DNA of 47,920 nucleotides, from assembly GCA_023512135.1 (NCBI GenBank), contig JAIMAG010000017.1, forward strand, positions 1 to 47,920. The letters are read 5' to 3'. The notes beneath the pieces are model-generated. The model was not told the origin of the DNA. It ran no database searches and worked only from the letters and a program-made list of their open reading frames with translations. This DNA is from Terriglobia bacterium (GTDB lineage: Bacteria > Acidobacteriota > Terriglobia > Acidiferrales > UBA7541). The position numbers and the translations under genes were made by a program. This document shows positions 24,764 to 46,777 of the stretch, one piece after another (positions within the stretch are counted from its first letter, which is position 1; each line of letters begins with the position of its first letter).

Positions 24764-26274
24764 GGAAGCTCCGGGACTGTCTTCGAGGTCGCAGCCGTCG
24801 CGGGGCTGTCTTCCGAATCCGATACCGCTGCCAGTCGGCCCGCGATGCCCGCAAAAACCCAGAAGTAGACATTGATCGGGTCCAGGTCCATCAGCCAGCC
24901 CTTGAAGCAGTTCAGCGCCATGACGAGCAGAAAGGCCAGCACCGCACAGGCGGTCGTGCGAAGCAGCGGCGAGCGCAGCCGCTGCCGCGCACGCCAGGCC
25001 GCCGCCATCAGCGCGGCGAAGAGCCACCAGAGCAGCAGCAGCCCCAGCCATCCCAGTTCGAGGACGGCTTTGGCGTAATAGTTCTCCACGGCCACGAAAG
25101 CTTCCGGATCATCCAGCGCATGCCGGGCCGGGCCGGTGTTCGTGCCGGTGCCGCCTCCGAAGGGAGACCTTTCGATCGCCTGGAGCAGGTCGAGGTACGC
25201 GGTCTGCTCCGCGTAGGTGACCAGCAGTTCCCAGATGTGAGCGAACAGGCTGCTCGCCGGAACACTCAGGATTCCCAGGGCCAGGGCCAACACCAGGGCG
25301 AAAACCAGCAGCGCGCGCGGCAGTCCGCCAAAGCCGCGGTCGAATCCGTAGGCCAGCACGAGCAGCAGGGGAACGAAAACGAACGCTGCCCGCGCTCCGG
25401 ACAGCAGCGAGGCCACCGCCACCAGGGCCAGCATCCAGCGTCCCATGCGACGCCAGCGCAGCGCGGGATCGCTGCGGCTGAGGATGTAGCACGGCACCAG
25501 CATCGCCAGCGTGTAGGCAAAGTACTGTGTCACGCTGCTGAACGTTGCCGGGATGCGCGGAGCCAGATAGCCGCCCCCCACTTCAAATACGGTGAACTCC
25601 TGGGTGACGTGCGCGGCCGCCACACCATAGATGGCTTCCATGACTTCCTGGTGGCCGTAGATGCGTCCCAGCAGGTACTGCGCCAGACCGACCAGACAGG
25701 GCACCACCGCGAACACGACACAGATCCGCAGCAGCGTGCGCAACCGGTCGAGGTCGGCCAGCAGCGCGGCCGTGAGCAGATACAGCGGCATGTAGAACAG
25801 CCAGACCTTGATGCCGATGGCGGCCAGCAAAGGCGAGGTCGCAGCCGGACGAATGGCCTGCAGGAGAACCAGCAGCCCGAACAGGAGCATGCAGAGCGCC
25901 GGGGCGCGGGCAAAGTCCGGCAGAGCTGTGCGACGCAGCACCCGGGCCCCGAGAAAGCCTAGATAGGCGGGCAAGGCAAAAAAAATGTCCTTGTAGAGCA
26001 AAGGATGGGCAAACGGAGGACCTTCCCACGGGTAGAAGGCCAGCGTTACGGCGCCGGAAAACGGCAGATAAGCGAGCAGGCCGTAATAGCCGCGCTGCCA
26101 GCGCAGCAGAATCAGTCCGAAACAGAACAGCAGCGCCAACCCGAGCAGGGTCAACAAACCCCATTCGCGGAGGATCAGTTGCGCGGCGAGCAGGGCAAGC
26201 AGCAAGCCGACCAGCAGAACCATCGCCGGGGCCAGCGCCGTCCGTGGCGGGGCCGTTGTGCGGACAGTGTTCAT
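24760..26274 (-). CDS. Wzy-like O-antigen polymerase / ligase-type membrane protein
   Basis: A 504-residue protein with about 12 predicted membrane segments. A large periplasmic loop (about 335-400) contains SVPASSLFAHIWELL, FGGGTGTNTGPARHALDDPEAFVAVENYYAKAVLELG, in the position where WaaL/Wzy proteins carry their catalytic loop. The rest is hydrophobic. The ENYY.KAVLELGWLG ending matches the 'xNxYLxxxxExG' element of the O-antigen ligase family. It lies among glycosyltransferases and just downstream of the flippase, which fits repeat-unit polymerisation at the periplasmic face. ATG 26274 overlaps the upstream stop (ATGA), with GGAGGG six bases before it. Confidence 0.8.
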   Translation of the reverse strand: MNTVRTTAPPRTALAPAMVLLVGLLLALLAAQLILREWGLLTLLGLALLFCFGLILLRWQRGYYGLLAYLPFSGAVTLAFYPWEGPPFAHPLLYKDIFFALPAYLGFLGARVLRRTALPDFARAPALCMLLFGLLVLLQAIRPAATSPLLAAIGIKVWLFYMPLYLLTAALLADLDRLRTLLRICVVFAVVPCLVGLAQYLLGRIYGHQEVMEAIYGVAAAHVTQEFTVFEVGGGYLAPRIPATFSSVTQYFAYTLAMLVPCYILSRSDPALRWRRMGRWMLALVAVASLLSGARAAFVFVPLLLVLAYGFDRGFGGLPRALLVFALVLALALGILSVPASSLFAHIWELLVTYAEQTAYLDLLQAIERSPFGGGTGTNTGPARHALDDPEAFVAVENYYAKAVLELGWLGLLLLWWLFAALMAAAWRARQRLRSPLLRTTACAVLAFLLVMALNCFKGWLMDLDPINVYFWVFAGIAGRLAAVSDSEDSPATAATSKTVPELP

Positions 26275-28634: not shown

Positions 28635-30245
28635 TTACCCACCGTGGTGCTGGCTTTTCTTCCCCGGCGGCGTGCTGCGAAGCACGACGGCAAACAGATG
28701 GCGCGCCTCGGCCACCCCGAACAGCCGTGTCGCCAGCAGGAATACAGCGAGACCGGCAGATCCACCGGCCACGGTTGACCAGAGCTCCCACGGCGGGATC
28801 GGCGTAACGAAAATCTCATGCACCCGCACCGCCACCCAGGCTGCCGCCAGCGCAGCCAGCGTTGTGCCGACCAGCAGCCGGGCCGCCGAAGCCGCCTGCA
28901 CAACCCGCCAGCGCCATCCCAGAACACCGGCCAGGATCAGAGTGCTGCTCCAGGCAACAGCCACCAGGGTCAGCACCACGCCTTCCACTCCGTGATGGGC
29001 AGCGACTTCGGGCAACATCAACGCCAGCGCAATCGTGCCCGCCAACTGCACTGCGAACGGCAACCAGTTCCTCTGCATCGAGTAACAGGTTTTCTCCAGG
29101 ATCACGCAGGCCGTGGTGGCAGGAGCGCCCAGCAGCAGCAGACCGAACAGACGGCTGACCTGACGAGCCGCATCGGCATCGAACGCACCCCGGCCCAGCA
29201 GCAGCTCGACCAGCGGCTCGCGCAGCGCGAAGCAGAGCAGGCTGAGCGGCACACCGGCAAACAGCACCAGACGCAATGCATCGGTGCTCGTATGGCGCAA
29301 TCGGACACTGCCCCCGCTCGCATGGCTGGCCGCCAGCCGCTGGAACAGAACGGTCGTCAGCGCTGCCGGCACCAGGGCCACCAGCATACCGAGTTTGTAG
29401 GCGTAGCCCAGCGCCGCCAGGCTACCTTCCGCCAGACGGGACACTTCCCGGAGAACCAGAACCGAAACCAGCTGGCCGAGCACGAACACCCCGAACAAGG
29501 GAAGCAGTAACAGAACGAGCCGGCGCAGCGCCGGAAACCGGAACCGAGCAGGCGAAGACGGCGCGACCGACGCGGCCGGCTTCAGGCGTTGTGCGCGCGC
29601 CCAGTGCAGTCCCATGGCGGCGAGCGGGCCGGCCAGTGCACCCACCATCAGCGCACCTACGCCCAGCAGCTGGCTCAGAAGGAGAATCGCCAGCACCAGC
29701 GCCAGGTGCCCGGTGAGCTGGGCCACGGGAGTGCACCAGAAGATGCCGTGGGCCTGCAGCACACCGGCTGCCGTGCCGGCAGCGACCAGCGGCAAATAGC
29801 CGAGGGCAAACCAGCGCAGCATCGTGGCAGCGGTGGCAGCGGATTCTCCTTCCAGCCCCGGAGCGAGCACGTTGACCAGCCGCTCCGGCCATAGAAACAC
29901 CATCGCGGCCACGACTCCGAACAGCAACAGCAGCAGTCCCATCAGACGCAGGGTCATTTGCCAGGCGCATCCGGCACGGCCCTGGGAGCGGAGCTCGGCA
30001 AACAGCGGCACGATGATGTGCGGCAGCACCTGCACAACCAGCAGCTGCTGACCGAGAACAAGGAAGGTGCTCGCGGTGCGAAATGCGTCCACCTCCGCCG
30101 ACACACCGAACTGCCAGGCCAGGGCCATCTCCACAGCCAGCCCGGCAGCCGGCGAGAGCACCGACAGAAGAACCAGTCCACCAACCGAGCGCACCATTCC
30201 GCCAGAATCTGACGCGATTCCGGCTCCGGCTGCGAACCCAGCCAC
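28635..30245 (-). CDS. MurJ/MviN-type flippase (Wzx-like role)
   Basis: A 536-residue membrane protein with about 14 hydrophobic segments, of the MurJ (MviN) family within the MOP superfamily. The N-terminal FGVSAEVDAFRTASTF and the LVVQVLPHIIVPLFAEL region are typical; a central YAYKLGMLVALVPAALTTVLF is recognisable. MurJ flips lipid II; MurJ-like copies inside polysaccharide loci are thought to flip undecaprenyl-linked repeat units in place of Wzx. I chose GTG 30245 because AAAAGGAG lies five bases upstream; an alternative ATG 30197 would lack a ribosome binding site. It lies between gmhB and the double GT4 gene (30 bp). A housekeeping murJ should exist elsewhere. Confidence 0.85.
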   Translation of the reverse strand: MAGFAAGAGIASDSGGMVRSVGGLVLLSVLSPAAGLAVEMALAWQFGVSAEVDAFRTASTFLVLGQQLLVVQVLPHIIVPLFAELRSQGRAGCAWQMTLRLMGLLLLLFGVVAAMVFLWPERLVNVLAPGLEGESAATAATMLRWFALGYLPLVAAGTAAGVLQAHGIFWCTPVAQLTGHLALVLAILLLSQLLGVGALMVGALAGPLAAMGLHWARAQRLKPAASVAPSSPARFRFPALRRLVLLLLPLFGVFVLGQLVSVLVLREVSRLAEGSLAALGYAYKLGMLVALVPAALTTVLFQRLAASHASGGSVRLRHTSTDALRLVLFAGVPLSLLCFALREPLVELLLGRGAFDADAARQVSRLFGLLLLGAPATTACVILEKTCYSMQRNWLPFAVQLAGTIALALMLPEVAAHHGVEGVVLTLVAVAWSSTLILAGVLGWRWRVVQAASAARLLVGTTLAALAAAWVAVRVHEIFVTPIPPWELWSTVAGGSAGLAVFLLATRLFGVAEARHLFAVVLRSTPPGKKSQHHGG

Positions 30246-30274
30246 GCTTGCTCCTTTTCCCCTGCCGCAGCCCG

Positions 30275-30919
30275 TCAGGGCACCGCCCGATTCAACCCCA
30301 GGTTGCGGGAAACACGCCGGGCTGCCCGGTTGGCAACCGGGTCGGCTATCCGGTGCCGCCTCGGGAGCCGGCACAGCGTGCGCAGAATCAACTCGGCAGC
30401 AGCGCCGATTCCTGCAGCAGAAAAGTCAGCTCGGCCCAATTCTGCTTCCAGCGCTGGTGAAGCAACGCGCACGGTCAGACAACCGACGGCTCGTCCGGCG
30501 GCGATGTCTTTCCAGCTATCGCCCACCAGAAACGAGCGGCGCAGGTTCAGGGAAAAGTCGCGCGCAGCAGCCAGCAGCAGCCCCGGTCGCGGCTTGCGGC
30601 ACGCACAGCCATCGGCGTCGTCGTGCGGACAGACGTAGATGGCATCCACCCCGAGCTGTGCGGCCAGCCTGCGGTGCATTTCCGCCAGTGTTTGCTTCTC
30701 CAGAAGACCGCGCGCCAGATCCGGCTGATTCGTCACGACCACCACCGGCAGGCCAGCCGCGCGCAGCCGGGCCACGGCGGCGGCGGCACCCGGCAGGAGC
30801 GCGAACTCGGCGAGCTGTCGCGGCGAAACCCAGCGCCCGGCGCGCCAGACCAGCCGGACGAGCACGCCATCGCGATCAAGCAGGACACCGGGTCGTCTTT
30901 TCTCGGCAGGCCTGGGCAC
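30275..30919 (-). CDS. gmhB: D,D-heptose 1,7-bisphosphate 7-phosphatase
   Basis: A 214-residue HAD-IIIA phosphatase. Motif I is LLDRDGVLV (D15, D17). Motif II is in VTNQPDLARG. A structural zinc site is formed by C97, H99, C105 and C107 (VCPHDDADGCACRKP), which is diagnostic for GmhB. Motif IV is VGDSWKDIAAG. The enzyme removes the 7-phosphate from heptose 1,7-bisphosphate. GTG 30919 is the only start that keeps motif I; it lies 44 bp inside the preceding SIS gene, preceded by GGCGGAG. The last 20 residues are Arg-rich and not family-like. Belongs with the SIS gene and hddA. Confidence 0.9.
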   Translation of the reverse strand: MPRPAEKRRPGVLLDRDGVLVRLVWRAGRWVSPRQLAEFALLPGAAAAVARLRAAGLPVVVVTNQPDLARGLLEKQTLAEMHRRLAAQLGVDAIYVCPHDDADGCACRKPRPGLLLAAARDFSLNLRRSFLVGDSWKDIAAGRAVGCLTVRVASPALEAELGRADFSAAGIGAAAELILRTLCRLPRRHRIADPVANRAARRVSRNLGLNRAVP

Positions 30920-31508
30920 GGATTTTCTCCGCCAGACAGAACGTCAGCAGGTGATGGAGCACGACATGGAACGATTCCACGCCCGGCGTGGTGTGGTCCG
31001 GCACCACAACGCAGACGTCGCACAGCTCGCGCAGGGCGCCGCCGTCGAAGCCGGAAAGGCCCAGCGCAGCACCGCCCTGTGTCCGCGCATATTCCACGGC
31101 CCGAAGCAGGTTCTGCGACCACAGGCCGGCGCGGTCGCGCCCGGTGCCCCCGTGCACGCTGATCGCGACCAGCACATCGCCGGGATGGAACAGCGTCTCC
31201 AGTTGCCGCACATAAATGGCGTCCCAGCCGTCATCGTTCGTCAGCGCGGAAAGCAGCGGCAGGTTGTCCACCAGGCTCACAGCCCGCAGTCGAGGCTGGC
31301 CGGGCGCAATCGTGCATTTGAACAGGTCGGCAGCCAGGTGTTGTGCAGTGCTCGCCGAGCCGCCATTGCCGCAGGTGAACACCGTGCTGCCGCGCTGCCA
31401 GGCGGCGTAGAGCAGCTCGATGGCGCGATCGATTGCGGCACGATCGATCGTAGCCGCGATGCGGCTGACCCCGGCCAGGTAGTTCTCGATGTACGAGCCG
31501 TTTTCCAT
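30876..31508 (-). CDS. GmhA-like SIS isomerase (second phosphoheptose isomerase)
   Basis: A 210-residue SIS-domain protein related to GmhA. It has CGNGGSASTAQHLAADLFKC (phosphate-binding), ISVHGGTGRDRAGLWSQNLLRAVEYA in place of the TSGxSxN loop, and a C-terminal ESFHVVLHHLLTFCLAEK. It differs from the canonical gmhA encoded at 14.2 kb: the loop is VHGGTG rather than STSGTS, and the tail differs. With gmhB directly downstream (44 bp overlap) and hddA 3 kb upstream, the role is most likely sedoheptulose 7-phosphate to heptose 7-phosphate for the polymer. ATG 31508 is preceded by GGGAGGCTGAGG. Confidence 0.78.
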   Translation of the reverse strand: MENGSYIENYLAGVSRIAATIDRAAIDRAIELLYAAWQRGSTVFTCGNGGSASTAQHLAADLFKCTIAPGQPRLRAVSLVDNLPLLSALTNDDGWDAIYVRQLETLFHPGDVLVAISVHGGTGRDRAGLWSQNLLRAVEYARTQGGAALGLSGFDGGALRELCDVCVVVPDHTTPGVESFHVVLHHLLTFCLAEKIRAQACREKTTRCPA

Positions 31509-31536: not shown

Positions 31537-32610
31537 CTAGCCGACCGCTTCGGCCGCCACCGGTGCCGCTGCTGGATCCCGTTCCGGACGAATCACGCTG
31601 CCGACCGCTGCGGCGCGGTAAGCCGCCTCAACCAGCCGCAGCGCCGCCAGGGCGTCGCGACCGCTCGCGACCGGAGTGCCCTGTCCTCGCACAGCCGAAA
31701 CAAATGCGCACCATTCCAGCTCCCAGGAACGATCCTCGCCGGGAAACTCGATAACCTGCTCGTCCGGTGCGCCAAAGTTTTCTGCGCGTTTTCCAACCCG
31801 CAGCCGCTCCGGTCCGTAGTTCCCACCCAAACCTTCCACGCAGAGATAGCCCTGGCTGCCACAGAGCTCGAAGCTGAACAGATTGCGCCACTGGGTCCAA
31901 GAGGCATGCAGGCTGGCCACCTGCCCGGCAGCCGTGCGGAGCAGCACAAACGCGTTGTCTTCGACCGCGACCGGCCAGAACGCCGTTTGCAGAAACGCAG
32001 CCACCTCGGCAAATTCGCCGAACAGCCAGCCGAACAGATCCAGCGCGTGGATGCCCTGGTCGAGCAACTCGCCCCCGCCGGCACGTACCGGGTCTGCTCG
32101 CCATTCCCGTTCGTAGCCGGCGCGCCCGCCGTGTCCGTACCGGCAACGTGCCCAGAGCAGCTGGCCGATCGCTCCCTCGGTGGCCAGCGCCCGGAGCCGT
32201 GCCAGCCCCGGGTGACAGCGGTGATTGAACCCGACCGCCAGCACCCGCCCGCGCCGTTCCGCCAGCGCAACCAGCGGAGCGGCTTCCGCCAGGTTGCGGG
32301 CCAGTGGCTTCTCGCAGAAGACATCCTTGCCGGCCTCGAGCGCGGCACGCGTGGCACGGGCCAGGCCATCGTGCGAGGTGGTTACTACCACCACATCCAC
32401 CGCTTCTGCCGTGGCCGCTGCTTCCCAGCTCTCCGTGACGCGACCGCCACAGGCAGCGGCCAGCGCGGCAGCACGGGCGCGATCGGTATCGGCCACCAGG
32501 ACGACCCGCGCAGAACGGCTGGCGGCCATCACCTCTGCGCGGCGGCGTCCGATACGGCCCGCACCTACGATGGCCACCCGCAAGGGCTGCGAACTGACGT
32601 TTCTTCCCAT
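31537..32610 (-). CDS. Gfo/Idh/MocA family oxidoreductase
   Basis: A 357-residue two-domain oxidoreductase. The Rossmann domain opens VAIVGAGRIGRRRAEV (GxGxxG). The family signature is CEKPLA (catalytic Lys). The substrate domain holds NHRCHPGLARL and GGGELLDQGIHALDLFGWLFGE, with D and H in the usual places for Gfo/Idh members. Such enzymes oxidise or reduce nucleotide-sugar hydroxyls at C3 or C2, or act on inositol and sugar acids. In this locus it may act with the SDR and the dehydrogenase-like gene to modify a nucleotide sugar. ATG 32610 has no strong ribosome binding site. The C-terminus is Ala/Pro/Val-rich. Confidence 0.85.
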   Translation of the reverse strand: MGRNVSSQPLRVAIVGAGRIGRRRAEVMAASRSARVVLVADTDRARAAALAAACGGRVTESWEAAATAEAVDVVVVTTSHDGLARATRAALEAGKDVFCEKPLARNLAEAAPLVALAERRGRVLAVGFNHRCHPGLARLRALATEGAIGQLLWARCRYGHGGRAGYEREWRADPVRAGGGELLDQGIHALDLFGWLFGEFAEVAAFLQTAFWPVAVEDNAFVLLRTAAGQVASLHASWTQWRNLFSFELCGSQGYLCVEGLGGNYGPERLRVGKRAENFGAPDEQVIEFPGEDRSWELEWCAFVSAVRGQGTPVASGRDALAALRLVEAAYRAAAVGSVIRPERDPAAAPVAAEAVG

Positions 32611-32684: not shown

Positions 32685-33545
32685 TCAGCCGCGGGCTACT
32701 TCGAGAAAATTTCGTCCGTCGATGCGCCGGAGGGTGTACAGCGCCGAATTCGCCAGCGCGGCAGGCTGGCTGGCCAGCCCGCGCCAGTCGTCCCAGACGG
32801 CGCTGATCAGCCGGCCGGTAATTCCGGCGGCCGCCGGTGTAGCCAGAAACACAGCCAGCTCGGCGGCGCGTTCAGCGGGCGTGCCTCCCGTTCGTTTCTG
32901 CTCGAGCGCCCTGGCATAGAACTCCGCTCCGGCCCGCTCTCCGGCCTCCAGCACCTGATCGAGCAGCCGGGTGTTCACGGCTCCGGGGGCAATCGCGTTG
33001 ATGCGGATGCCGTACTCGCGTACCTCTTCAGCCAAGGTTTCCGTCAGGCGCACCACCGCCGCTTTGCTCGCGCTGTAGGCCGAAAACCTGGGGAACGGCG
33101 CCACCGCCCCGCCGCCGGAAAAGTTCACCACCACGCCTTTGCGCCGAGCGATCATGGCAGGCAGTGTGCGATGCAGCACCCGCGCCGTACCCACCAGATT
33201 GACCGCCACGGCCCGGGCCCACTGCTCCATGTCGTTTTCCACCAGCGGACCAATCGGCCCGTAGATGCCGGCGCAGTTCACCACCACGTCAATCTGTCCG
33301 AAGCGCTGCAGCGCGATGCGGACAAACCGCTCCACATCGCGCGCGTCTGAGACGTCCCCGGCCACCGGCACGGCCTCCACCCCGGCTTCGGCCGCCTGTC
33401 GTGCGACCCGTTCCAGATCGGCCATCGTGCGCGCCACCAGCGTCAGATGGGCACCGGCCCGGGCAAAGGCCAGCGCCGTCGCCGCACCGATGCCTTGGCC
33501 GGCTCCCGTGATCAGCACCGCTTCTCCGAGCAGTGGTCGGTTCAT
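32685..33545 (-). CDS. short-chain dehydrogenase/reductase
   Basis: A 286-residue classical SDR. It has TGAGQGIGAATALAFA (TGxxxGxG nucleotide site), NCAGIYG, the catalytic Ser in NFSGGGAVA, and YSASK (Tyr, Lys). The length exceeds a minimal SDR by about 35 residues at the C-terminus (WDDWRGLASQPAALANS...). NAD(P)(H)-dependent; substrate unknown, probably a sugar or sugar acid given the neighbours. ATG 33545 has CAGGAG eight bases upstream, and its first ATGA overlaps the stop of the upstream UDP-glucose-dehydrogenase-like gene, so it is translated by coupling. Confidence 0.85.
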   Translation of the reverse strand: MNRPLLGEAVLITGAGQGIGAATALAFARAGAHLTLVARTMADLERVARQAAEAGVEAVPVAGDVSDARDVERFVRIALQRFGQIDVVVNCAGIYGPIGPLVENDMEQWARAVAVNLVGTARVLHRTLPAMIARRKGVVVNFSGGGAVAPFPRFSAYSASKAAVVRLTETLAEEVREYGIRINAIAPGAVNTRLLDQVLEAGERAGAEFYARALEQKRTGGTPAERAAELAVFLATPAAAGITGRLISAVWDDWRGLASQPAALANSALYTLRRIDGRNFLEVARG

Positions 33546-34897
33546 CGTCCCACTCCTGCCATCGAATCTACTTTCGACTGTGTCGAGCTGGGCTCTGGAA
33601 CTCCGACTCCAGCCCAAACCAATCCCGCACGAGCAAGCTCTGCCGGGTCGAGCAGATTGTGCGCATCCAGTACGACCGTGCCGCGCATCACCCGGCGCAT
33701 CTGTTCCCAGTCGAGCGTGCGAAACTCAGGCCAGGGCGTCGTCAGCAACACGGCATCGGCACCGGCGGCAGCCTGGTAAGGGTCCGCGCCAAGTACGATT
33801 CCGCTGCCACCCAGTTCGGCGCCGGCAGAACCCGTCACCCCGGGATCGTAGGCCTGCAGCGTCGCGCCGGCATCCACCAGTCGCCGAGCCAGCTCCAAGG
33901 CATGCGAGCGGCGCAGGGTGCTCGTGCCGGGCTTGTAGACCAGGCCGAGCAGGGTGACCCGTCGTCCCGCCAGTTCCCCGCCGAGCAGTCGCCGCAGCTT
34001 TTCCACCAGCATGGGCAAGCGTGCCCGATTGACGGCGAGGACAGCATCGAGCAGACGGGTTGGCTGGCCGGTGCGCACACCGAGCTTTCGGAGCGTCTGG
34101 ACATCGCGGCCGAGCGTGCCGCCGGCGAAACCGGGTCCGGGGCTGAGAAAGGCGTGCGGACCGATCCGCCGGTCAGCGCGCAGCACACCGACGACGTCGC
34201 GGATATCGGCTCCGACCACTTCAGCCAGAGCCGCCAGCTCGTTGGCGAAGCTGACCGAGGTGGCCAGGAAGGCGTTGGTGGCGTGTTTGGCCAGTTCGGC
34301 ACTCTCCCAGCTCATGACCAGCCGCGGGCCCGGAATCCCGCGATAGAGCGGCTCCAGTTTCTCGGCCGCCGCACGAGGCTCGGCGCCCACCACGATGCGG
34401 TCGGGCCGGGTGAACGTTTCGAGCGCCTGGCCGAGCCGCAGGTTTTCCGGCTGGCAGAGCAGTGTGAACGGCAGCGCCGGGGCGCGTGCAGCCATCTCCG
34501 CCGCCAGCCGGCGCGTGGTGCCGACCGGCACCTGACTCATCAGCACCACCGTCAGCGGCGTGCGCGCATGCGCAGCGATTTCCTGCGCGGCGCGTTCGAT
34601 GGGCCGAAGGTCGCTGCCATCGGCGTCGTCGACCGGCGTGTCGAACGTGATAAAGGCCGCATCCACTCCGGCGAGCGCACGAGCCACGTCGGCGGTAAAC
34701 GCGAGCCGAGCCGCGTTGAGCTCGCCGGTCAGCAGCTCCTGCAGCCCCGGCTCGAACAGCGGCGGCTCCCCGGCCGCCAGCCGCGAGACCAACGCGCCGT
34801 CAAAATCGATCCCGCAAACGCGGTGCCCGAGCCGGGCCAGAGAACCAGCCACGACGCAGCCGAGATGCCACAGGCCGAAGACAGCTATGCGGGCCAT
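33542..34897 (-). CDS. UDP-glucose/GDP-mannose dehydrogenase homologue without catalytic cysteine
   Basis: A 451-residue protein with the three-domain layout of nucleotide-sugar 6-dehydrogenases. Conserved residues are E151 (QPENLRLG), K204 and N208 (AKHATNAFLA), and D265. Two key features are missing. The NAD motif GxGYVG reads GLWHLG (8-13, W10 in place of the second Gly), and the catalytic Cys of the GFGGSCFxKD motif is T261 (GFAGGTLGRD). Without that cysteine the two-step oxidation to the acid should fail. It may be a one-step oxidoreductase, an epimerase-like enzyme, or inactive. ATG 34897 follows CGGAG; it overlaps hddA by 13 bp. Confidence 0.82.
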   Translation of the reverse strand: MARIAVFGLWHLGCVVAGSLARLGHRVCGIDFDGALVSRLAAGEPPLFEPGLQELLTGELNAARLAFTADVARALAGVDAAFITFDTPVDDADGSDLRPIERAAQEIAAHARTPLTVVLMSQVPVGTTRRLAAEMAARAPALPFTLLCQPENLRLGQALETFTRPDRIVVGAEPRAAAEKLEPLYRGIPGPRLVMSWESAELAKHATNAFLATSVSFANELAALAEVVGADIRDVVGVLRADRRIGPHAFLSPGPGFAGGTLGRDVQTLRKLGVRTGQPTRLLDAVLAVNRARLPMLVEKLRRLLGGELAGRRVTLLGLVYKPGTSTLRRSHALELARRLVDAGATLQAYDPGVTGSAGAELGGSGIVLGADPYQAAAGADAVLLTTPWPEFRTLDWEQMRRVMRGTVVLDAHNLLDPAELARAGLVWAGVGVPEPSSTQSKVDSMAGVGR

Positions 34898-35961
34898 GAT
34901 TCGCTCCGCGCGGTTGTCTCCACACCGGTTTGCATGGTCGACGGCGCATAGACCCCGGCCGAGAAGCCGCCGTCGAGAAAGTTCACCAGTACCTTCGACC
35001 CTTCGAAGTCGAAGCCGTAGCGCATTTCGCGCAGCCCGGCAGCGCGCATCGCTTCGCGCAGTTGCTGGTGTCGGCGCTCGGTGTAGAAGAGAAAGAAACC
35101 GCCGCCGCCGGCACCGGACAGCTTGCCGCCCAGCGCGCCGTTGGCCCGGGCCAGTTCGTAGAGGGCATCAAAGCGCGGGTTGGTGACCCTGGCCGAGAGC
35201 CGCTTCTTCAACTGCCAGTGCCGGTCGAGCGCCAGCCCGAAGCTGGTCAGGTCGCCCGCCTCGATCCATTCCAGAATCTGCCAGCCCATCTCCTTGATCC
35301 GGTCCAGGCTGCCGAGCACGCCATCGCGGGCCGCGGCCGCCGCGCGGCTCTGTTCGGCGAGAATATCCAGCGCGTTGCGTTCCGTACCGGTGTAGAACAG
35401 CAGCATGTTGCGCCGCAGCTCCTCGAGGGTTTCCTCGGAAACCCGTGCCGGGCGCACGGCCACGCAGCCGTCGGGCGCAATCTCCAGTACGGTCAACCCG
35501 CCGAAGGCCGCCAGATACTGATCCTGCTTGCCGATGGGCTTGCCCAGAATTTCGATCTCCAGATGGCAGGCTTCTTCGGCCAGCTCGGCCGGGCCCAGCG
35601 GACGGCGCTGCAGCGTGTGCAGAGCGTTCAGCAGACCCACTGCGTAGCAGCTCGAGCTGCCGAGTCCGGTTCCCGCCGGCACATCGGCCATGGAGACAAT
35701 TTCCACGCCGCGCTCGATCCCGACCAGTCGCAGGGCCTCGCGTGCGATATCGTGTTCGAGCTGATCCCGGTGCGGAACGATCTCCGTACGCGTGTATTTG
35801 ACCCGCACCAGATCGTCCACCACCGGCCGATTCAGGTTGATCACCATGTACTTGTTGATCGCTGCGGCGAAAACGAACCCGCCCCGCTGGCGGTAGTACG
35901 CGGGCAGATCGGTGCCGCCACCTCCGAGCGTGATGCGAAACGGTGTGCGTGTGACGATCAT
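34885..35961 (-). CDS. hddA: D-glycero-alpha-D-manno-heptose 7-phosphate kinase
   Basis: A 358-residue GHMP kinase. It opens MIVTRTPFRITLGGGGTDLPAYY, the typical HddA start. The ATP-loop is PAGTGLGSSSCYAVGLL, and the C-terminal motif is GGKLSGAGGGGFFLFY. HddA phosphorylates heptose 7-phosphate at O1 to give the alpha-1,7-bisphosphate, the branch that leads to GDP-D-alpha-D-heptose rather than ADP-heptose. ATG 35961 forms an ATGA overlap with the upstream epimerase stop, and AGGAGGT lies 11-12 bases before it. The GDP-heptose pyrophosphorylase (HddC) expected with it is not in the window. Confidence 0.9.
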   Translation of the reverse strand: MIVTRTPFRITLGGGGTDLPAYYRQRGGFVFAAAINKYMVINLNRPVVDDLVRVKYTRTEIVPHRDQLEHDIAREALRLVGIERGVEIVSMADVPAGTGLGSSSCYAVGLLNALHTLQRRPLGPAELAEEACHLEIEILGKPIGKQDQYLAAFGGLTVLEIAPDGCVAVRPARVSEETLEELRRNMLLFYTGTERNALDILAEQSRAAAAARDGVLGSLDRIKEMGWQILEWIEAGDLTSFGLALDRHWQLKKRLSARVTNPRFDALYELARANGALGGKLSGAGGGGFFLFYTERRHQQLREAMRAAGLREMRYGFDFEGSKVLVNFLDGGFSAGVYAPSTMQTGVETTARSESWPA

Positions 35962-37109
35962 GATCCGGCCCGCACCTCCTGCGCCGACGGTGTGGCGGTC
36001 ACCAGCACGCCAGCGCGCCGCATTTCGTCGGCGGCCTGCTCGGCGTTGTCGGGTGGCTCGCCCTGCTCCCGCACCCAGGCCACATAGTCGCGGAGAATTT
36101 GCTCGACCCCGTGCTGCGGTGCCCAGCCGAGTGCGCGCAGCTTCGTCGAATCGGAGATCGTGTGGCGGGTATCACCCAGGCGGAAATCGCCGCGCACGAT
36201 CGGGGCAATTGCCGCATCACAGGCCCGCGCCGCCAGGGTGGCGAACTCGAGCACGCTGGTCGCCCGCTGCCCGCCCACGTTGTAGGCCTGAAACTCCGCC
36301 TCCGGACGCTCCCAGACGAGCAGGTTCGCCCGGGCCACATCGGCCACGTGCACGTAGTCGCGCAACTGGCGACCGTCTTCGAACACCACCGGGGGCTGGC
36401 CGCGCAGCAGCCGTTTGACGAAGATCCGGCAGATGCCCGAATACGCGTTCCACAGCGAGTTCCGCGGGCCCTGCACGATCGAATACCGCATCGCCACGAC
36501 GGGAATGCCCAGCCGCCGGCCGAGCTGAAACCCGAGCAGTTCGGCGGCGTACTTCGAGATGCCGTAGGCGGTGTGCGGATGGACGACCGACTCTTCCAAA
36601 GGAACTGGCTCCAGATCGGCTCCGCACTGCGGACAGGGATGTTCCCACTGGCCCGCACGCAGCCGCGCCAGCGGGCGCGCGGCCGGATAGAACACTCCGT
36701 GCTCGGCGCAGCGGTATTTGCCCTCGCCATAGACAGCCTGCGAAGACGCCAGCACCACCTTTTCGACCGGCAGCCGCCGCGCCGCGATCACTTCGAACAG
36801 CAGCGCGGTCGAAACCGCGTTGACGTGCACAAAGGTGGAGAAATCGGGCTGGTAGTCCTGATAAGCCGCCAGGTGAAATACGCCGCGCACCCCGTCCAGA
36901 GCCCGCTCCCAGGCTGCGGCGTCGCGCACATCGCCCGCGATTCGTTCCACCTCGGCCGGCAGCCAGGCGGGCCAGCCGTGCGGATGCACCCGCGGCTGGA
37001 GATTGTCGAGCACGCGCACGCGGTAGCCCCGGGCGAGCAGCAGATCCACCGTGTGCGAGCCGATGAATCCGGCACCGCCCGTCACCAGAATCGTTTCCGC
37101 CAACTCCAT
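35958..37109 (-). CDS. NAD-dependent epimerase with zinc-ribbon insertion (dTDP-L-rhamnose 4-epimerase-like)
   Basis: A 383-residue extended SDR. It has GGAGFIGSH (residues 11-19), SSQAVYG, and YGISK (Y182, K186). Between the catalytic Ser and Tyr there is an insert of about 40 residues with C134, H137, C159 and C162 (RCAEHG...CPQCG), a likely zinc site. From memory this insert is shared with dTDP-L-rhamnose 4-epimerase-like SDRs. The substrate could be a dTDP- or GDP-sugar in this locus. ATG 37109 directly follows GAGGGAGG. It overlaps hddA by the ATGA. Its neighbours suggest it may act on a GDP-heptose derivative, but that is only inference. Confidence 0.85.
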   Translation of the reverse strand: MELAETILVTGGAGFIGSHTVDLLLARGYRVRVLDNLQPRVHPHGWPAWLPAEVERIAGDVRDAAAWERALDGVRGVFHLAAYQDYQPDFSTFVHVNAVSTALLFEVIAARRLPVEKVVLASSQAVYGEGKYRCAEHGVFYPAARPLARLRAGQWEHPCPQCGADLEPVPLEESVVHPHTAYGISKYAAELLGFQLGRRLGIPVVAMRYSIVQGPRNSLWNAYSGICRIFVKRLLRGQPPVVFEDGRQLRDYVHVADVARANLLVWERPEAEFQAYNVGGQRATSVLEFATLAARACDAAIAPIVRGDFRLGDTRHTISDSTKLRALGWAPQHGVEQILRDYVAWVREQGEPPDNAEQAADEMRRAGVLVTATPSAQEVRAGS

Positions 37110-37141: not shown

Positions 37142-38602
37142 CTAGTAAGCTCCGCGGCCGCGCAGCACCGCCGGGATCGTTTTCAACAAAATCCAGCAGT
37201 CCAGGCTCAGCGAGGCCCGGCGGATGTATTCCAGGTCCAGTTGCACCCAGTGGTCGAAGTCGCGGATTTCGCTGCGACCGTTCACCTGCCACAAGCAGGT
37301 CAAGCCCGGCTTGACCGAAAGCTTCCGCCGCTGCCAGAACGCGAACCGCTCCGCTTCTTCGGGGAACGGCGGCCGCGGCCCCACCAGGCTCAGATCGCCG
37401 CGCAGCACGCTGACCAGTTGCGGCAGCTCATCCAGGCTGTACTTGCGCAGCCAGCGGCCCAGCCGCGTCACCCGGGGGTCGTTGCGCATCTTGAAGACCG
37501 GCCCGTTCATCTCGTTCGCCGCTGCCAGCGCGGCCTTGCGGCGGTCGGCATCGGGCACCATGGTGCGGAATTTCCAGCTCGTGATCGGCCGGTGATTGCG
37601 CCCGAGCACCCGCCAGTGGTAGAGGACCGGCGCGCGCGGATCGCTCAGCTTGATCGCGACCGCAATGGCCGCCAGCAGCGGCGACAGCAGCACCAGCAGC
37701 ACCGCGGCTCCGACCAGGTCCATGGCCCGCTTGACCACTCGATAGCCGCTGCCCCAGCGCACGGTGGACACCACGGCCACCGGCTGACCGAGGAAAAATT
37801 CCAGCGAAACCTGCGGATCGGCAATCGAGTAGCCCGCCCGGTGCAACTGAAAATCCGGCAGCACCACCACCCGCAGCCCGAGCTCAACCGCTGCGGCAAT
37901 CCGCTCGCTGGCTTTTGGCACCAAAGCCAGTGGCATGGCGAACACCACCAAATCCACCGCCTCGCGGGTCAGAATCGAAACCAGCGCATCGGTGCTGCCC
38001 AGCACCGGTACCCCTTCGACCGTCGTGCCGGCCGGCAACGGCTCCGGATCGAGACAGCCGACCACACAGTAGTCGGCATCGTCGGCGTGCCGCGCGCGGC
38101 GGATGAACTCGCGCGCCCGCTCCCGCGTACCCACCACCACCACCCGCGGCACGTTGTAGATGTGAGCCCGGCGCAACGCGAGCAGCCCCAGTACCAGCCA
38201 GCGGCCAGCGAGCGAAACCGGAACGTAGAGCAGACAGAAACCGAACAGGATCAGCCGGCTCACCTCGACCAGCTTGGCAGCAAAGATCACCACGGCCAAA
38301 CCGGCCAGCCCGAGCGCCGAGGTGCGCAGCGTCCGCTGCAGCACCAGCCGCCAGGCCAGTCGCGTGCGCCCGTACAGCCCGGCCTGCGCGGCCAGCCCAA
38401 TCCAGAGCGGCAGAATCAACAGCAGCAGCCAGGCGTGCTCGGAGAAATGGCCGGGGTCGGCAGCCCCGGCACGCAGCCACGGCCGGTAGACCGGGAGCAG
38501 GCGGTAGGAGAGATAGAAGCTGGTCGTCACCCAGAGCAGATCGGCTCCCAGCAGCAGATGCCGGGTGGTCCATCCACCGGTGAAGGCATCGGAGTGTCGC
38601 AT
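37142..38602 (-). CDS. polyprenyl glycosylphosphotransferase (WcaJ/WbaP-like initiating enzyme)
   Basis: A 486-residue protein with four or five N-terminal membrane helices (about 15-150), a cytosolic Rossmann-like domain (about 155-265), and a C-terminal catalytic domain (about 290-486). The catalytic part shows the hairpin helix, SWKFRTMVPDA, GPVFKMRNDPRVTRLGRWLRK, YSLDELPQL and LSLVGPRPP (DE..P signature). The enzyme transfers a sugar-1-phosphate from a UDP-sugar to undecaprenyl phosphate, starting the repeat unit. This sets the locus as undecaprenyl-linked, Wzx/Wzy-dependent. ATG 38602 has CAGGGAA seven bases upstream. Confidence 0.92.
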   Translation of the reverse strand: MRHSDAFTGGWTTRHLLLGADLLWVTTSFYLSYRLLPVYRPWLRAGAADPGHFSEHAWLLLLILPLWIGLAAQAGLYGRTRLAWRLVLQRTLRTSALGLAGLAVVIFAAKLVEVSRLILFGFCLLYVPVSLAGRWLVLGLLALRRAHIYNVPRVVVVGTRERAREFIRRARHADDADYCVVGCLDPEPLPAGTTVEGVPVLGSTDALVSILTREAVDLVVFAMPLALVPKASERIAAAVELGLRVVVLPDFQLHRAGYSIADPQVSLEFFLGQPVAVVSTVRWGSGYRVVKRAMDLVGAAVLLVLLSPLLAAIAVAIKLSDPRAPVLYHWRVLGRNHRPITSWKFRTMVPDADRRKAALAAANEMNGPVFKMRNDPRVTRLGRWLRKYSLDELPQLVSVLRGDLSLVGPRPPFPEEAERFAFWQRRKLSVKPGLTCLWQVNGRSEIRDFDHWVQLDLEYIRRASLSLDCWILLKTIPAVLRGRGAY

Positions 38603-38623: not shown

Positions 38624-39316
38624 CTAGCTGCGGTCGGCCGTGCGCGCCGCGAGCTCTGCCAGCGCCCGTTCGGCATCGGCATTGAAGCCGCGCACCGTTT
38701 CCCGGCTGTACTTGTGATCCACCAGGCGCGGCAGAAACGGCGGCGGAATGGTGATGATGTGAGCTCCCGCCAAAGCCGCCATCTGCACGTCCAGCACGGT
38801 GCGGATACTGCCGACGATGATCCGCGCCGGATGGGCCCAGCGATCCAGCCAGCCGCGCACATTGCCGATGACCTCGGACGGATTCCCGCCTTCGTCCGCT
38901 ATCCTGCCGGCAAACAGACTGACGTAGCTCGCGCCCGCCTTCGCGGCCAGCAGGGCCTGATTGAAGGAAAGAATCGCCGTGCAGTTGACCGCAATGCCTT
39001 CCTGAGCCAAGCGGTGCACGACGTCGAGGCAGGAAAGGCCGTCCTGGTTGATCACGGGAACCTTGACCACCACGTTCGGCGCCCAGCGGGCCATGGCGCG
39101 TCCCTGGCGCAGCATCTGCTCGGGATCGTTGCTGGTCACTTCGACCGAAACCGGACGCGGATCGAGCAACCGGCACAGCGCCCGCGTGCCCTCTTCCAGG
39201 TCATAGACACCGTCCCGCAAGCAGATGGACGGATTCGTGGTGACTCCGTCCACCAAACCGTGCGCCAGCCAACGTGCGATTTCCCGGCAATTCGCGCTGT
39301 CGAGAAAGATTTGCAT
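38624..39316 (-). CDS. transaldolase-family protein (decameric type)
   Basis: A 230-residue TIM-barrel transaldolase of the short subfamily that also contains fructose-6-phosphate aldolase. It has D6, TTNPS (26-30) and the Schiff-base Lys K85 (VVVKVPV). Residue 59 is Glu (SVEVTSND) and the SLFAGRI segment has Phe where the aldolase has PYVNR with Tyr; both favour transaldolase over fructose-6-phosphate aldolase. It would make or use sedoheptulose 7-phosphate, the substrate of GmhA. That makes its place beside heptose genes sensible. ATG 39316 has AAGG upstream; a start at 39331 would add five residues. Lies between Wzc and the WcaJ-like gene. Confidence 0.85.
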   Translation of the reverse strand: MQIFLDSANCREIARWLAHGLVDGVTTNPSICLRDGVYDLEEGTRALCRLLDPRPVSVEVTSNDPEQMLRQGRAMARWAPNVVVKVPVINQDGLSCLDVVHRLAQEGIAVNCTAILSFNQALLAAKAGASYVSLFAGRIADEGGNPSEVIGNVRGWLDRWAHPARIIVGSIRTVLDVQMAALAGAHIITIPPPFLPRLVDHKYSRETVRGFNADAERALAELAARTADRS

Positions 39317-39364
39317 CACGCACCTTCGCATCCCGAGCGAGCCGGCGCCGCCCCGGCACCGACT

Positions 39365-41692
39365 TCAACGGTCCGGGCTGGCGGCGCTTTCGGTCGTCTC
39401 GACCTCTCGCCGCTCGTAGTAGTGATAGTAGGAATAGGCATACGCGTCGGCGGTGCGGGCATCGAGCTGATTCAGCACCACGCCGAGCACATGCCCGCCC
39501 ACACTTTCGATTCCTGCAAGAGCCCGCTGCGCCAGCTCGCGCGGAGTGGTTCCGGCTTTGACGACCAGCACAACGCCTTCGACCTGCGTGGCCAGCACCC
39601 GGCTGTCGGAAACATTCAGCACGGGAGGAGAATCCACAATCACGACGTGATACTGGCGCGCAGCTTCCTGCAGCAGCGCGGGCATCCGCGCGCCGCTCAG
39701 CAACTCGGCCGGGTTCGGCGGAACGGGCCCGCAGACCAGCGCATCCAGACCCGGCACGCCGGTCGGCTGCACCACGTCCATCCACTCGACCCGCCCCGAC
39801 AGGTAGCCAGACAAGCCCTGCTGCCGTCCGAGTCCGAAGGCCAGATGGACCGAAGGCCGACGCATGTCTCCGTCGATCAGCAGCACACGCTGACCGAGCT
39901 GGGCCAGCGAAATCGCCAAGTTGGTGGAGACGGTCGTTTTCCCCTCGCCCGGCTGCGCACTGGTCACCAACAAAGTCCGCGGGGGGCGGTCGGCCGCCGA
40001 AAGCAGCACCGAAGTGCGCAGACCGGCAAAGGCCTCCGCCAGCACCGAATGCTGCGTTTCCGCCCGGTCAATGCGCAGCCAGAGGTTCAGGCCCGGTGCC
40101 GGTTTCCCGTTCGGCTTCTGCGTCCGGCGCCCGGCCAGGAGACTGCCTGAAATCTGCGGTCGCCGACCATAGACGGCGCCGCGCCGCCCGACGAGCGAAT
40201 CTTCTGCCGGGATGAAGGCCAGCGTGGGAATCTGCAGATAGCGTTCGATCTCCTCCGAGCTTTTGATCGAACTGTCGACGTGCTCGGCCAGCAGTGCCGC
40301 TCCGATTCCCAAGCCGAGCCCGAAGGCGGTCCCCAGGAGCAGGTTCAGCAGCAGGTTCGGTTTTGCCGGACGCCGCGGCGGCGTGGCGCGATCCACGACG
40401 CGAATGTTGGAAGACTTGATGCCCGAAGAAACGCCGGCTTCCTTCAGCCGCTGCAGCAGGGCTTCGTAGAGCTGCCGGTTGGTTTCCACTTCTCGTTTCA
40501 GGATGTTGTACTGCACCGAGCGTTCCGCCACCTGGTTTCGCCGCTGCTGCTGTTCGGCAAACGCGCGGACCAGCATCTGTTCCCGTGCCAGTGCCGCGCG
40601 GTACTCGTTGCCGACGCGCTCGGCCATGCGCGCCCGTTCGGCGGCCAGCAACTGTTCGAGCTCACCGATCTGGTTGTCGAGCTGGCGCACGCGGGGATAT
40701 TCTCCGGTGAACAGCGTGGCCAGCTCCGCCCGTTCCCGCCGCAGATCGGCCAGCCGCACGAGCAGGTCTTCGATCACCTTGCTCTCGCCGCCGGGCAGCG
40801 CCGAGAAATGGCCCGCCTCGACCAGCCGATAGCGGGATTCCCGCTCGAACCGCTCGGCCTGCGCCCGCGTCAGCTCCTCCTGCAACTGTCGCAACCGCTC
40901 ATCCAGGATGTGCTCGGGCTGTCCCTCGCTGGTTTCCAGAAACAGCAGGCCGTTTTCCCGGGCATACCGCTGCAGCTCTTCTTCCGAGCGTTCCAGTTTC
41001 ACTTTCAGCCCGTCGAGCTGCTGACCGAGCCATTCACTGGCCTTCTGGGTGGCCTGCCAGCGCACCTCTAAACTCTGGTCGATGTAGTTGTCCGCGAGCG
41101 CATTGACCACGGCAGCGGCGAGCTCCGGATCGTGCGATTGAAAACTGATTTCGACGAGCCGGCTGCGCTTGACCGGAGCGATGGTCAGCCGCCGGTGGTA
41201 GCTGGCCAGCGTAGCCTCCAGCGCTTCCGGCCCCGGGGCCGAGTCCGGCACGCTGGCCGCCGACACCGTGCCGGCCGAGGAGGCGTTCGGGTTGAACTCG
41301 GGCACGCGGTCCAGGCGCAACTGCTGGATTACCCGTCGCGCCAGGGCATCGCTGCGGAGCACCTTGTACTGGGTTTCCAGATAGGCATCGGAGACCGTCT
41401 CCAGCTCGAACAGTTCCTTCACCGTCAGAAAATTCGGATTTTCTTTTTCGATTTCGATCAACCCGCGGGCTTCGAACACCGGCCGCATCTTCAGCGTGCC
41501 GATCAGCACCAGCAGCCAGACGACGCTGAACAGCGTCAGCACCGTCCAGCGCCGCTTGCGCAGCACGCGCCAGTACGCCAGCAGATCCACCGGCGTTTCG
41601 CGCTGGCTGTCGGTGGCCCGTGGGGCCGGCAACGGACCGGGCACGATCGGGCCCGGCGGGCGGTGGGGGACCAACGGATGCGCTTCGCTCAT
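39365..41692 (-). CDS. wzc: Wzc-type polysaccharide co-polymerase and tyrosine autokinase
   Basis: A 775-residue PCP2a protein. It has a proline-rich start, a first membrane helix (about 48-68), a Wzz domain and a long coiled coil (about 210-410). The second helix follows the PPRRPAKPN motif (about 445-475). A cytoplasmic BY-kinase has Walker A SAQPGEGKTTVSTN (about 577-590), Walker A' LLIDGDMRRP and Walker B VIVDSPPV. The C-terminus has six tyrosines in YAYSYYHYYERR, the autophosphorylation cluster. It sets chain length and couples synthesis to export through Wza. GGAGG lies five bases before ATG 41692, one base after the wza-like stop. Confidence 0.93.
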   Translation of the reverse strand: MSEAHPLVPHRPPGPIVPGPLPAPRATDSQRETPVDLLAYWRVLRKRRWTVLTLFSVVWLLVLIGTLKMRPVFEARGLIEIEKENPNFLTVKELFELETVSDAYLETQYKVLRSDALARRVIQQLRLDRVPEFNPNASSAGTVSAASVPDSAPGPEALEATLASYHRRLTIAPVKRSRLVEISFQSHDPELAAAVVNALADNYIDQSLEVRWQATQKASEWLGQQLDGLKVKLERSEEELQRYARENGLLFLETSEGQPEHILDERLRQLQEELTRAQAERFERESRYRLVEAGHFSALPGGESKVIEDLLVRLADLRRERAELATLFTGEYPRVRQLDNQIGELEQLLAAERARMAERVGNEYRAALAREQMLVRAFAEQQQRRNQVAERSVQYNILKREVETNRQLYEALLQRLKEAGVSSGIKSSNIRVVDRATPPRRPAKPNLLLNLLLGTAFGLGLGIGAALLAEHVDSSIKSSEEIERYLQIPTLAFIPAEDSLVGRRGAVYGRRPQISGSLLAGRRTQKPNGKPAPGLNLWLRIDRAETQHSVLAEAFAGLRTSVLLSAADRPPRTLLVTSAQPGEGKTTVSTNLAISLAQLGQRVLLIDGDMRRPSVHLAFGLGRQQGLSGYLSGRVEWMDVVQPTGVPGLDALVCGPVPPNPAELLSGARMPALLQEAARQYHVVIVDSPPVLNVSDSRVLATQVEGVVLVVKAGTTPRELAQRALAGIESVGGHVLGVVLNQLDARTADAYAYSYYHYYERREVETTESAASPDR

Positions 41693-41693
41693 C

Positions 41694-42734
41694 CTACCTC
41701 CGGAAGACGATCAACCCGCTGACGATCCCGATGGCGGCTTCGGCACTGCGATAGAACGCCCCGCGCGCCGCCGAGTTGGGCACAAAGACGATGTCGCGGG
41801 GCTGCAGCAACAGGTCCGGAGCCTTGCCATCCAGGATGCGTCCCAGATCGACGGGAATCTCCTGCCGCGCGCCGGTGCGGGCATCGGTGCGAATGATCCG
41901 CGCGCGGCTGCGCGCCGCCGTTCGGGTCAGGCCCTCGGCCAGCGCCAGCGACTGGAGCACGCTGATGCTTTCGTTGCTCCGCAGCAGAAAGCCACCGGGC
42001 TTGTGCACCTCGCCCACGACATAGACCACGCCCGCACGCGGCACCCGTACCACGTCGCCGGGCCAAACCGGCAGATCCAGCTCCGGGCTGCTCGACTGCA
42101 GTAGATCCTTCAGATGGATTTCGGCCACCGGCGCCAGCTCGCTGGCCAGAACCCGTTCCGGACTGCGTGTGATCACCACGCGGTCACCGGCATCCTCGGC
42201 CAATCCGCCGGCCAGCGACAGCACCTCGACCACCGAGCTGCGCCTTCGCAGTTGATAGACACCCGGCCGGGCCACGGCCCCGAACACCGCCACACCCCGG
42301 CTGTTCAGCTCCTTCACAAACACACTCACCTGTGGATCGCGCATGTACCGTTCGGCCAGGCGCCGGCCGATTTCTTGCTCCAGCTCGCGCGCCGTTCGCC
42401 CGGCAGCGACAAGCGGACCGATCAGCGGCAGGGAAATCTCTCCGGCGTTGTTCACGCGCACGGTGCGGTTCAGCTCCTCGGCACCGAGGATTGTGATTTC
42501 CAGCAGATCCTCCGGACCGATCTGCCCCTCCGCAGCCTCGGCGGTGCCGCGGAGGCTCTGCTCGAGCTGCGCCAGCCGCCGGTTGTAATCTCGGGTCGTT
42601 TCGAGCACCGGCTTTTCTTCCTTCGGAGGCTGCTGGGCCCGGGGCGGTTGAGCACTGAGCGCGCCAATCGTGCCCAGCAGCCCTGCGAGGGCCGCTCGTG
42701 AGGCTCCACGGAACAGGACTGTGTTGTGCCTCAT
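41694..42734 (-). CDS. Wza-like polysaccharide export protein (PES/SLBB)
   Basis: A 346-residue exported protein. The signal peptide is about 1-30 and ends near SAQ. A polysaccharide export sequence domain (about 68-150) begins IGPEDLLEITILGAEELN. It is followed by SLBB domains (about 155-235 and 245-320: RGVAVFGAVARPGVYQL, VVYVVGEVHKPGGFLL). Canonical Wza is a lipoprotein; here I see no lipobox cysteine. It would form the outer-membrane export channel with the Wzc-like protein. ATG 42734 has GGGAG eight bases upstream; two upstream Met codons would only lengthen the signal region. The preceding gene is the FecR-like protein, 168 bp away. Confidence 0.88.
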   Translation of the reverse strand: MRHNTVLFRGASRAALAGLLGTIGALSAQPPRAQQPPKEEKPVLETTRDYNRRLAQLEQSLRGTAEAAEGQIGPEDLLEITILGAEELNRTVRVNNAGEISLPLIGPLVAAGRTARELEQEIGRRLAERYMRDPQVSVFVKELNSRGVAVFGAVARPGVYQLRRRSSVVEVLSLAGGLAEDAGDRVVITRSPERVLASELAPVAEIHLKDLLQSSSPELDLPVWPGDVVRVPRAGVVYVVGEVHKPGGFLLRSNESISVLQSLALAEGLTRTAARSRARIIRTDARTGARQEIPVDLGRILDGKAPDLLLQPRDIVFVPNSAARGAFYRSAEAAIGIVSGLIVFRR

Positions 42735-42834
42735 GGGATATGCTCCCGGCTCTTGTCTCATGCGGACGAGCCGGCTGCGCAGGGCGCACACCGGCTGCAC
42801 GCACGAAAAGCGGAAAGAATCTCGAAGGAAGGGG

Positions 42835-46649: not shown

Positions 46650-46702
46650 CCGAGAAGCAGCCGGAACACGTGCGGCCGTCGCACGCGACAGCAAGGCGCA
46701 AC

Positions 46703-46711
46703 AGTATAACA
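46703..46711 (-). promoter_or_regulatory. extended -10 promoter of YitJ-like gene
   Basis: On the minus strand TGTTATACT is an extended -10 (TGn plus TATACT). There is no good -35 at the normal distance, which extended -10 promoters can do without. Transcription would start about 47 bases before ATG 46649, so the gene has its own promoter apart from the upstream cystathionine beta-synthase gene. Confidence 0.5.
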
Positions 46712-46777
46712 TCGCCTCCGACGGGTCAGCAGCGCCCGGAAGGAGAACCCGCCAGCGGCGCGCTGGCCGCAGACCGG

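Follow-up and report, generated by a model that had tools for sequence, protein, structure and literature searches.

The window, a stretch of 47,920 nucleotides from a Terriglobia bacterium, carries on one strand a cassette in the order transaldolase, initiating sugar transferase, epimerase, HddA-like kinase, UDP-glucose dehydrogenase (UGDH)-like dehydrogenase, SDR, Gfo/Idh oxidoreductase, GmhA-like isomerase and GmhB-like phosphatase (Table 1). The dehydrogenase gene begins with ATG and is free of internal stops. At its start it shares 13 nt with the end of the HddA-like kinase gene, and at its stop 4 nt with the beginning of the SDR gene. The plus-strand translation of the same interval was rejected as a gene, the minus strand being the coding one. 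With the HddC profile no nucleotidyltransferase was found in the window cassette, and five NTP_transferase genes are present elsewhere in the genome.

The cassette lies within a polysaccharide locus (17117-42800) with a Wzz/GNVR-ATPase protein (39365-41692), a Poly_export protein (41694-42800), a MurJ/MATE-like flippase (28635-30374), an O-antigen ligase (17117-18406) and several glycosyltransferases, one of which (26271-28604) contains two glycosyltransferase units within one protein. At 44808-46712 of the window, homocysteine S-methyltransferase and methylenetetrahydrofolate reductase domains are fused.

Table 1 Features of the window, with positions and basis of assignment
Feature	Position	Strand	Basis
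Cys-less UGDH-like dehydrogenase	33542..34897	minus	451 aa; three UDPG_MGDP_dh domains, fold
W10 + H11 codons (canonical Gly9, Tyr10 of SpUGDH)	34865..34870	minus	alignment; numbering by PMC4794789
Q122 codon (canonical Thr118)	34532..34534	minus	alignment
L155 codon (canonical Glu145)	34433..34435	minus	alignment
T261 codon (canonical catalytic Cys260)	34115..34117	minus	alignments
SDR oxidoreductase	32685..33545	minus	Ser143, Tyr157, Lys161 retained; neighbour in 74/82 loci
Gfo/Idh/MocA oxidoreductase	31537..32610	minus	profile matches; 65/82 loci
SIS isomerase, GmhA-like, divergent	30876..31508	minus	BpGmhA Asp61 to Thr, Glu68 to Asp
HAD phosphatase, GmhB-like	30275..30919	minus	domain match; cassette homologue
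GHMP kinase, HddA-like	34885..35961	minus	profile matches; solved relatives
NAD-dependent nucleotide-sugar epimerase/dehydratase (extended SDR)	35958..37109	minus	profile matches
Initiating polyprenyl-phosphate sugar transferase (Bac_transf)	37142..38602	minus	domain match
Transaldolase / fructose-6-phosphate aldolase family protein	38624..39331	minus	47/82 loci
Polysaccharide co-polymerase (Wzz/GNVR, ATPase domain) + Poly_export protein	39365..42800	minus	polysaccharide locus context

The dehydrogenase, its relatives and its active site

The N, central and C domains of UDPG_MGDP_dh (Pfam) are all present in the dehydrogenase, which scores 323.1 bits with TIGR03026 (nucleotide sugar dehydrogenase; curated cut-off 189.8), and databases call it a 'nucleotide sugar dehydrogenase' (TIGR03026 in the sequence libraries). 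Its motifs read GLWHLG (W10), SQVPVGT (Q122), CQPENLRLG (E151), AKHATNAF (K204, N208) and GFAGGTLGRD (T261, D265). An earlier note on this DNA had placed Thr261 at the catalytic Cys and Trp10 at the second Gly of GxGxxG, and alignment to solved UGDHs gave the same assignment. The replacements go further than that note had recognised and include Tyr10, Thr118, Glu145 and the Lys of PKD (S. pyogenes UGDH numbering). A canonical UGDH, for UDP-GlcA, is encoded elsewhere in the same genome.

The structure predicted with AlphaFold2 from 50 family sequences had a pLDDT of 92.9 and a pTM of 0.88. Its nearest solved structures in Foldseek were UGDHs (E 1e-40, TM ~0.9), and VIA-align superposed the model on 3gg2 with Z 45.4 and an rmsd of 1.7 A over 421 residues, and on 4a7p with Z 44.9. 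The structure prediction called for in the earlier note thus indicates that the fold, as modelled, is still that of a UGDH. The protein resembles the UGDHs 3gg2, 4a7p, BceC (2y0e) and the human enzyme in fold, in sequence (28-38 % identity) and in the three Pfam domains, and has Lys204, Asn208, Asp264, Glu141, Thr83, Asp29 and Arg244 in common with them. Unlike these enzymes, it has lost the catalytic Cys, Tyr10, Thr118, Glu145 and GxGxxG, and its operon is different.

The same motifs were found in 4 of the 60 related genomes searched beside the window's own, three from the same family (60 % identity) and one from the same order (44 %). In the other related genomes the canonical enzymes were about 40 % identical or less, with GxGYVG and GFGG(F/S)C where these were read. 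Scanning 84,980 species genomes turned up 241 relatives, of which the best 80 were aligned together with the window protein (n=81). These best 80 come from Acidobacteriota, Verrucomicrobiota, Chloroflexota, Planctomycetota, Pseudomonadota, Patescibacteria, Micrarchaeota, Nitrosopumilaceae and others. A scan with a DNA pattern of SQVP codons (297 genomes) was too permissive and was not used.

In all 81 proteins W10, H11, Q122, E151, N152, K204, H205, N208, G259, G260, T261, R264, D265, N290, Y321, R329 and S331 were invariant, among them the Glu151, Lys204, Asn208 and Asp265 that the earlier note had listed as kept, and D31 and T87 were conserved in 79. At six of the invariant positions, W10, H11, Q122, N152, T261 and R264, canonical enzymes have G, Y, T, F, C and K; the catalytic position was Thr in 81/81 family members and Cys in 34/34 canonical sequences. 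As the genome scan selected on GLWHLG or SQVPVGT, the W10-H11-L12-G13 and Q122 columns are partly ascertained, and those of N152, L155, T261, R264 and Y321 are independent of the selecting peptides. In a tree of 41 members and 31 other family enzymes, the family formed a single clade (SH-aLRT 100, stem length 0.95), a test limited in that the canonical rows set beside the clade are from genomes related to that of the window. As the earlier note had proposed to check, one clade unites the homologues that bear GLWHLG and GGTL(G/A)RD, and their conserved neighbourhood includes the SDR and Gfo/Idh enzymes. The dehydrogenase is thus a member of a widespread, apparently so far unrecognised branch of the UGDH family. 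A sequencing error or one-off was rejected on the residue pattern in 81/81 members, and a pseudogene or assembly error because many genomes, and closed plasmids too, carry the gene intact.

A survey of 229 NDP-sugar dehydrogenases listed 18 invariant residues and assigned the roles of C260, T118, D264 and Y10, the last in thioester hydrolysis (PMC4794789); the roles of Cys276 and Lys220 in human UGDH (hUGDH) are given in PMC3184952. The family retains 14 of the 18, the changed ones being Gly9, Thr118, Gly257 and Cys260, and has changed two residues outside the set, Tyr10 and Glu145. The residues of the first oxidation, Lys204, Asn208, Asp264 and Glu141, are retained in 81/81, and the family also keeps the NAD-contacting Asp29 and Thr83. 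Judged from the alignments, residues assigned to thioester formation and hydrolysis are among those lost, and those for the first alcohol oxidation are retained. Most of the lost residues have been exchanged for others that are themselves fixed, a pattern that speaks against decay.

A nearby cysteine filling the catalytic position would have spoken against the earlier note, and no conserved compensating Cys was seen at the site in the 81-protein alignment. The cysteines of the window protein at 14, 28 and 148 are patchy in the family (C14 42 %, C148 56 %, C28 below 20 %), and C19 and C225 are common to family and canonical enzymes.

The cassette in other genomes and its sugar-supply enzymes

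The full operon extends beyond what the earlier note had recognised. By profile searches, 82 family loci compared with 20 canonical-UGDH loci had SDR in 74 vs 2, Gfo/Idh in 65 vs 1, HddA-like in 50 vs 0, transaldolase in 47 vs 0, GmhA-like in 46 vs 0, HddC-like in 45 vs 0 and GmhB-like in 43 vs 0; the family counts are lower bounds, many contigs being short, and only genomes related to that of the window supplied the background loci. Among the 33 family loci flanked on each side by 9 kb or more, Gfo/Idh was present in 29, SDR and HddA in 26 each, transaldolase and GmhA in 25 each, HddC in 24 and GmhB in 22. SDR, Gfo/Idh, HddA, GmhA and transaldolase occurred together in 41 loci, from at least 14 named phyla and unclassified records. 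The commonest order was epimerase, UGDH-like, SDR, Gfo/Idh, HddA, HddC, GmhA, GmhB, transaldolase, with order and strand near-constant. This nine-gene operon is conserved across many bacterial and archaeal phyla (at least 14 named).

A plasmid search located the full cassette, in the commonest order, on a closed Rhizobium jaguaris plasmid, and a rearranged one on the closed plasmid 3 of Lawsonia intracellularis (locus L144, 9580-28872), where annotations are general only (SIS, transaldolase, nucleotide sugar dehydrogenase, galactokinase). A related cassette in genome G016 (locus L141, contig C7, 4178-11523) consists of Gfo/Idh, epimerase, sugar transferase, SDR, HddA-like and a GmhB-GmhA fusion protein and has no UGDH-like gene, which suggests that the pathway is modular and the UGDH-like step optional.

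The supply enzymes resemble those of the GDP-D-glycero-D-manno-heptose pathway (GmhA, HddA, GmhB, HddC), to which the neighbours are nearest in type and which they match in lying in one operon. However, the curated cut-offs are not reached. The HddA-like kinase of the window scores 160.9 bits with the equivalog NF049969 (cut-off 600), HddA still being its best family and its best solved relatives including heptose kinases; the GmhA-like isomerase scores 104.1 bits with TIGR00441 (209.45), and the cassette nucleotidyltransferase 81.4 bits with HddC NF049965 (300), with a higher score for the MurU model. The nucleotidyltransferase is nearest to MurU and HddC, and the phosphatase to the histidinol-phosphatase/GmhB group. 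With TIGR02134 (cut-off 281.95) the transaldolase of locus L120 reaches 303.2 bits and that of the window 114.2 bits. The isomerase active site is also altered: relative to GmhA of B. pseudomallei, Asp61 is Asn or Thr (rarely His or Ala) and Glu68 is Asp in the cassette isomerases, residues that probably mark a distinct subfamily of isomerases acting on a substrate of their own. Either GVGGSAANASHAVNDF or GNGGSASTAQHLAADL replaces the Asp61/Glu68 pattern of GmhA in 46 GmhA-like isomerases (e.g. locus L087, 8757-9353).

Transaldolase, SDR, Gfo/Idh and UGDH-like steps are additional to the GDP-D-glycero-D-manno-heptose pathway. As the supply enzymes score below the HddA, GmhA and HddC equivalog cut-offs and the isomerase active site is altered, the sugar may be something other than a classical heptose. 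A heptose-type substrate, for which the chances seem even, is our best guess from the neighbouring supply enzymes and not a finding.

Another likeness is to WbpA/WbpB-type pairs, which consist of a UGDH-family and a Gfo/Idh dehydrogenase, in that a UGDH-type enzyme is paired with a Gfo/Idh-type one. Unlike such pairs, the present enzyme lacks the Cys, and the recurrent gene types of the cassette include no aminotransferase in a profile set that left aminotransferases out. Neither a Cys-less branch of NDP-sugar dehydrogenases nor this gene set was described in the open-licence papers searched, a weak absence with subscription journals outside the search; the operon is apparently undescribed so far.

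Proposed reaction and its alternatives

We propose that the enzyme is an NAD+-dependent NDP-sugar dehydrogenase of UGDH fold, remodelled to perform a single two-electron oxidation in place of two, and give this a probability of about 0.5. A two-electron oxidation of an NDP-sugar, taken by itself, seems somewhat favoured, and the single oxidation would probably lead toward an undescribed, probably seven-carbon, surface sugar. The thiol of UGDH captures the aldehyde made in the first oxidation and keeps it bound during the second, and the hUGDH variant C276A does not complete the reaction from UDP-glucose (PMC3184952). In the family enzyme, Asp265 with a water, Lys204 and Asn208 would still remove proton and hydride from an alcohol group on the bound NDP-sugar. 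Without the thiol, neither thiohemiacetal nor thioester would form, and the carbonyl product would be released for the SDR, Gfo/Idh and epimerase enzymes to take up.

The transaldolase and the GmhA-, HddA-, GmhB- and HddC-like neighbours suggest an NDP-heptose or close relative as the substrate. It is more speculative that the oxidised carbon would be C6, the position on which UGDH acts and which in a heptose bears a secondary alcohol. A 6-ketone could not be oxidised again, so that the thiol and the hydrolysis residues would be useless and the Cys could be lost without harm. Oxidation at heptose C6 would account simply for the pattern of lost and retained residues, where we infer substrate, carbon and product alike; a C6 ketone as the product is doubtful. 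The modified sugar would then enter a surface polysaccharide or glycan. The complex of hUGDH with UDP-4-keto-xylose was rejected as a precedent for ketone formation, the compound having been made by E. coli ArnA (PMC11713868). Tentatively, and at rather less than even odds, the operon may encode an unnamed cross-phylum NDP-sugar pathway from transaldolase to finished NDP-sugar, with the UGDH-fold enzyme as a ketone-forming NDP-heptose dehydrogenase and a chemically undescribed surface sugar as the outcome.

It is unlikely that a uronic acid is still formed, in a four-electron, non-covalent reaction with direct oxidation of the hydrated aldehyde. The fold and the NDP-sugar and NAD residues are retained, and since hUGDH C276A is reported still to oxidise the aldehyde intermediate (PMC3184952), loss of the Cys alone leaves an acid product possible. 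However, Thr118, Tyr10 and Glu145 were lost along with the Cys, Tyr10 being the residue assigned to thioester hydrolysis (PMC4794789), and the same genome already has its canonical UGDH. The TIGR03026 score is above the cut-off, but the change of 4 of the 18 published invariant residues makes the four-electron chemistry of UGDH, GMD and UDP-ManNAc DH unlikely. If a primary alcohol (hexose C6 or heptose C7) were oxidised to the aldehyde only, which would serve to lengthen the carbon chain, possibly together with the transaldolase, loss of the Cys should indeed block acid formation, and a transaldolase/FSA-family gene accompanies 47 of the 82 loci; the transaldolase may simply feed sedoheptulose 7-phosphate to the GmhA-like enzyme, with no direct link to the dehydrogenase, and we regard this course as improbable.

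The earlier note had suggested a single oxidation or an epimerisation. Its interpretation is supported, and on the sequence evidence the single oxidation is the best reading and epimerisation a rival. An epimerase would oxidise and re-reduce the same carbon with a tightly held NAD, the GLWHLG loop holding the cofactor. The fixed change of the NAD-loop Gly to Trp in 81/81 (a partly ascertained column) and the D31 and T87 retained in 79/81 would suit this, but an extended-SDR epimerase is already encoded in the operon along with two further oxidoreductases, and no epimerase with a UGDH fold was encountered in the analysis, which makes epimerisation improbable. The absence of the catalytic Cys and of one NAD-loop Gly could also point to a catalytically dead pseudoenzyme with a regulatory or structural role. 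This appears highly improbable, as K204, N208, D265 and E151 are invariant in 81/81 and the lost residues have given way to other invariant ones.

If the single oxidation is correct, a covalent four-electron enzyme has become a two-electron one by changes at about a dozen positions, and a nine-gene operon present in at least 14 phyla specifies an activated sugar that has yet to be described. The candidate enzymes are all in one place, so the pathway would be directly testable by stepwise reconstitution. Annotation pipelines label such proteins UDP-glucose or nucleotide-sugar dehydrogenases (e.g. in Lawsonia intracellularis) and thereby imply uronic acid products, which are probably beyond the capacity of these enzymes.

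The cassette often has a polyprenyl-phosphate-type GT2 and a methyltransferase close by. A methyltransferase-like protein starting WPKVFPPLTPEQ, which no NCBIfam model matched at 1e-10, recurs beside it (locus L087, 10672-11409, and 16 loci).
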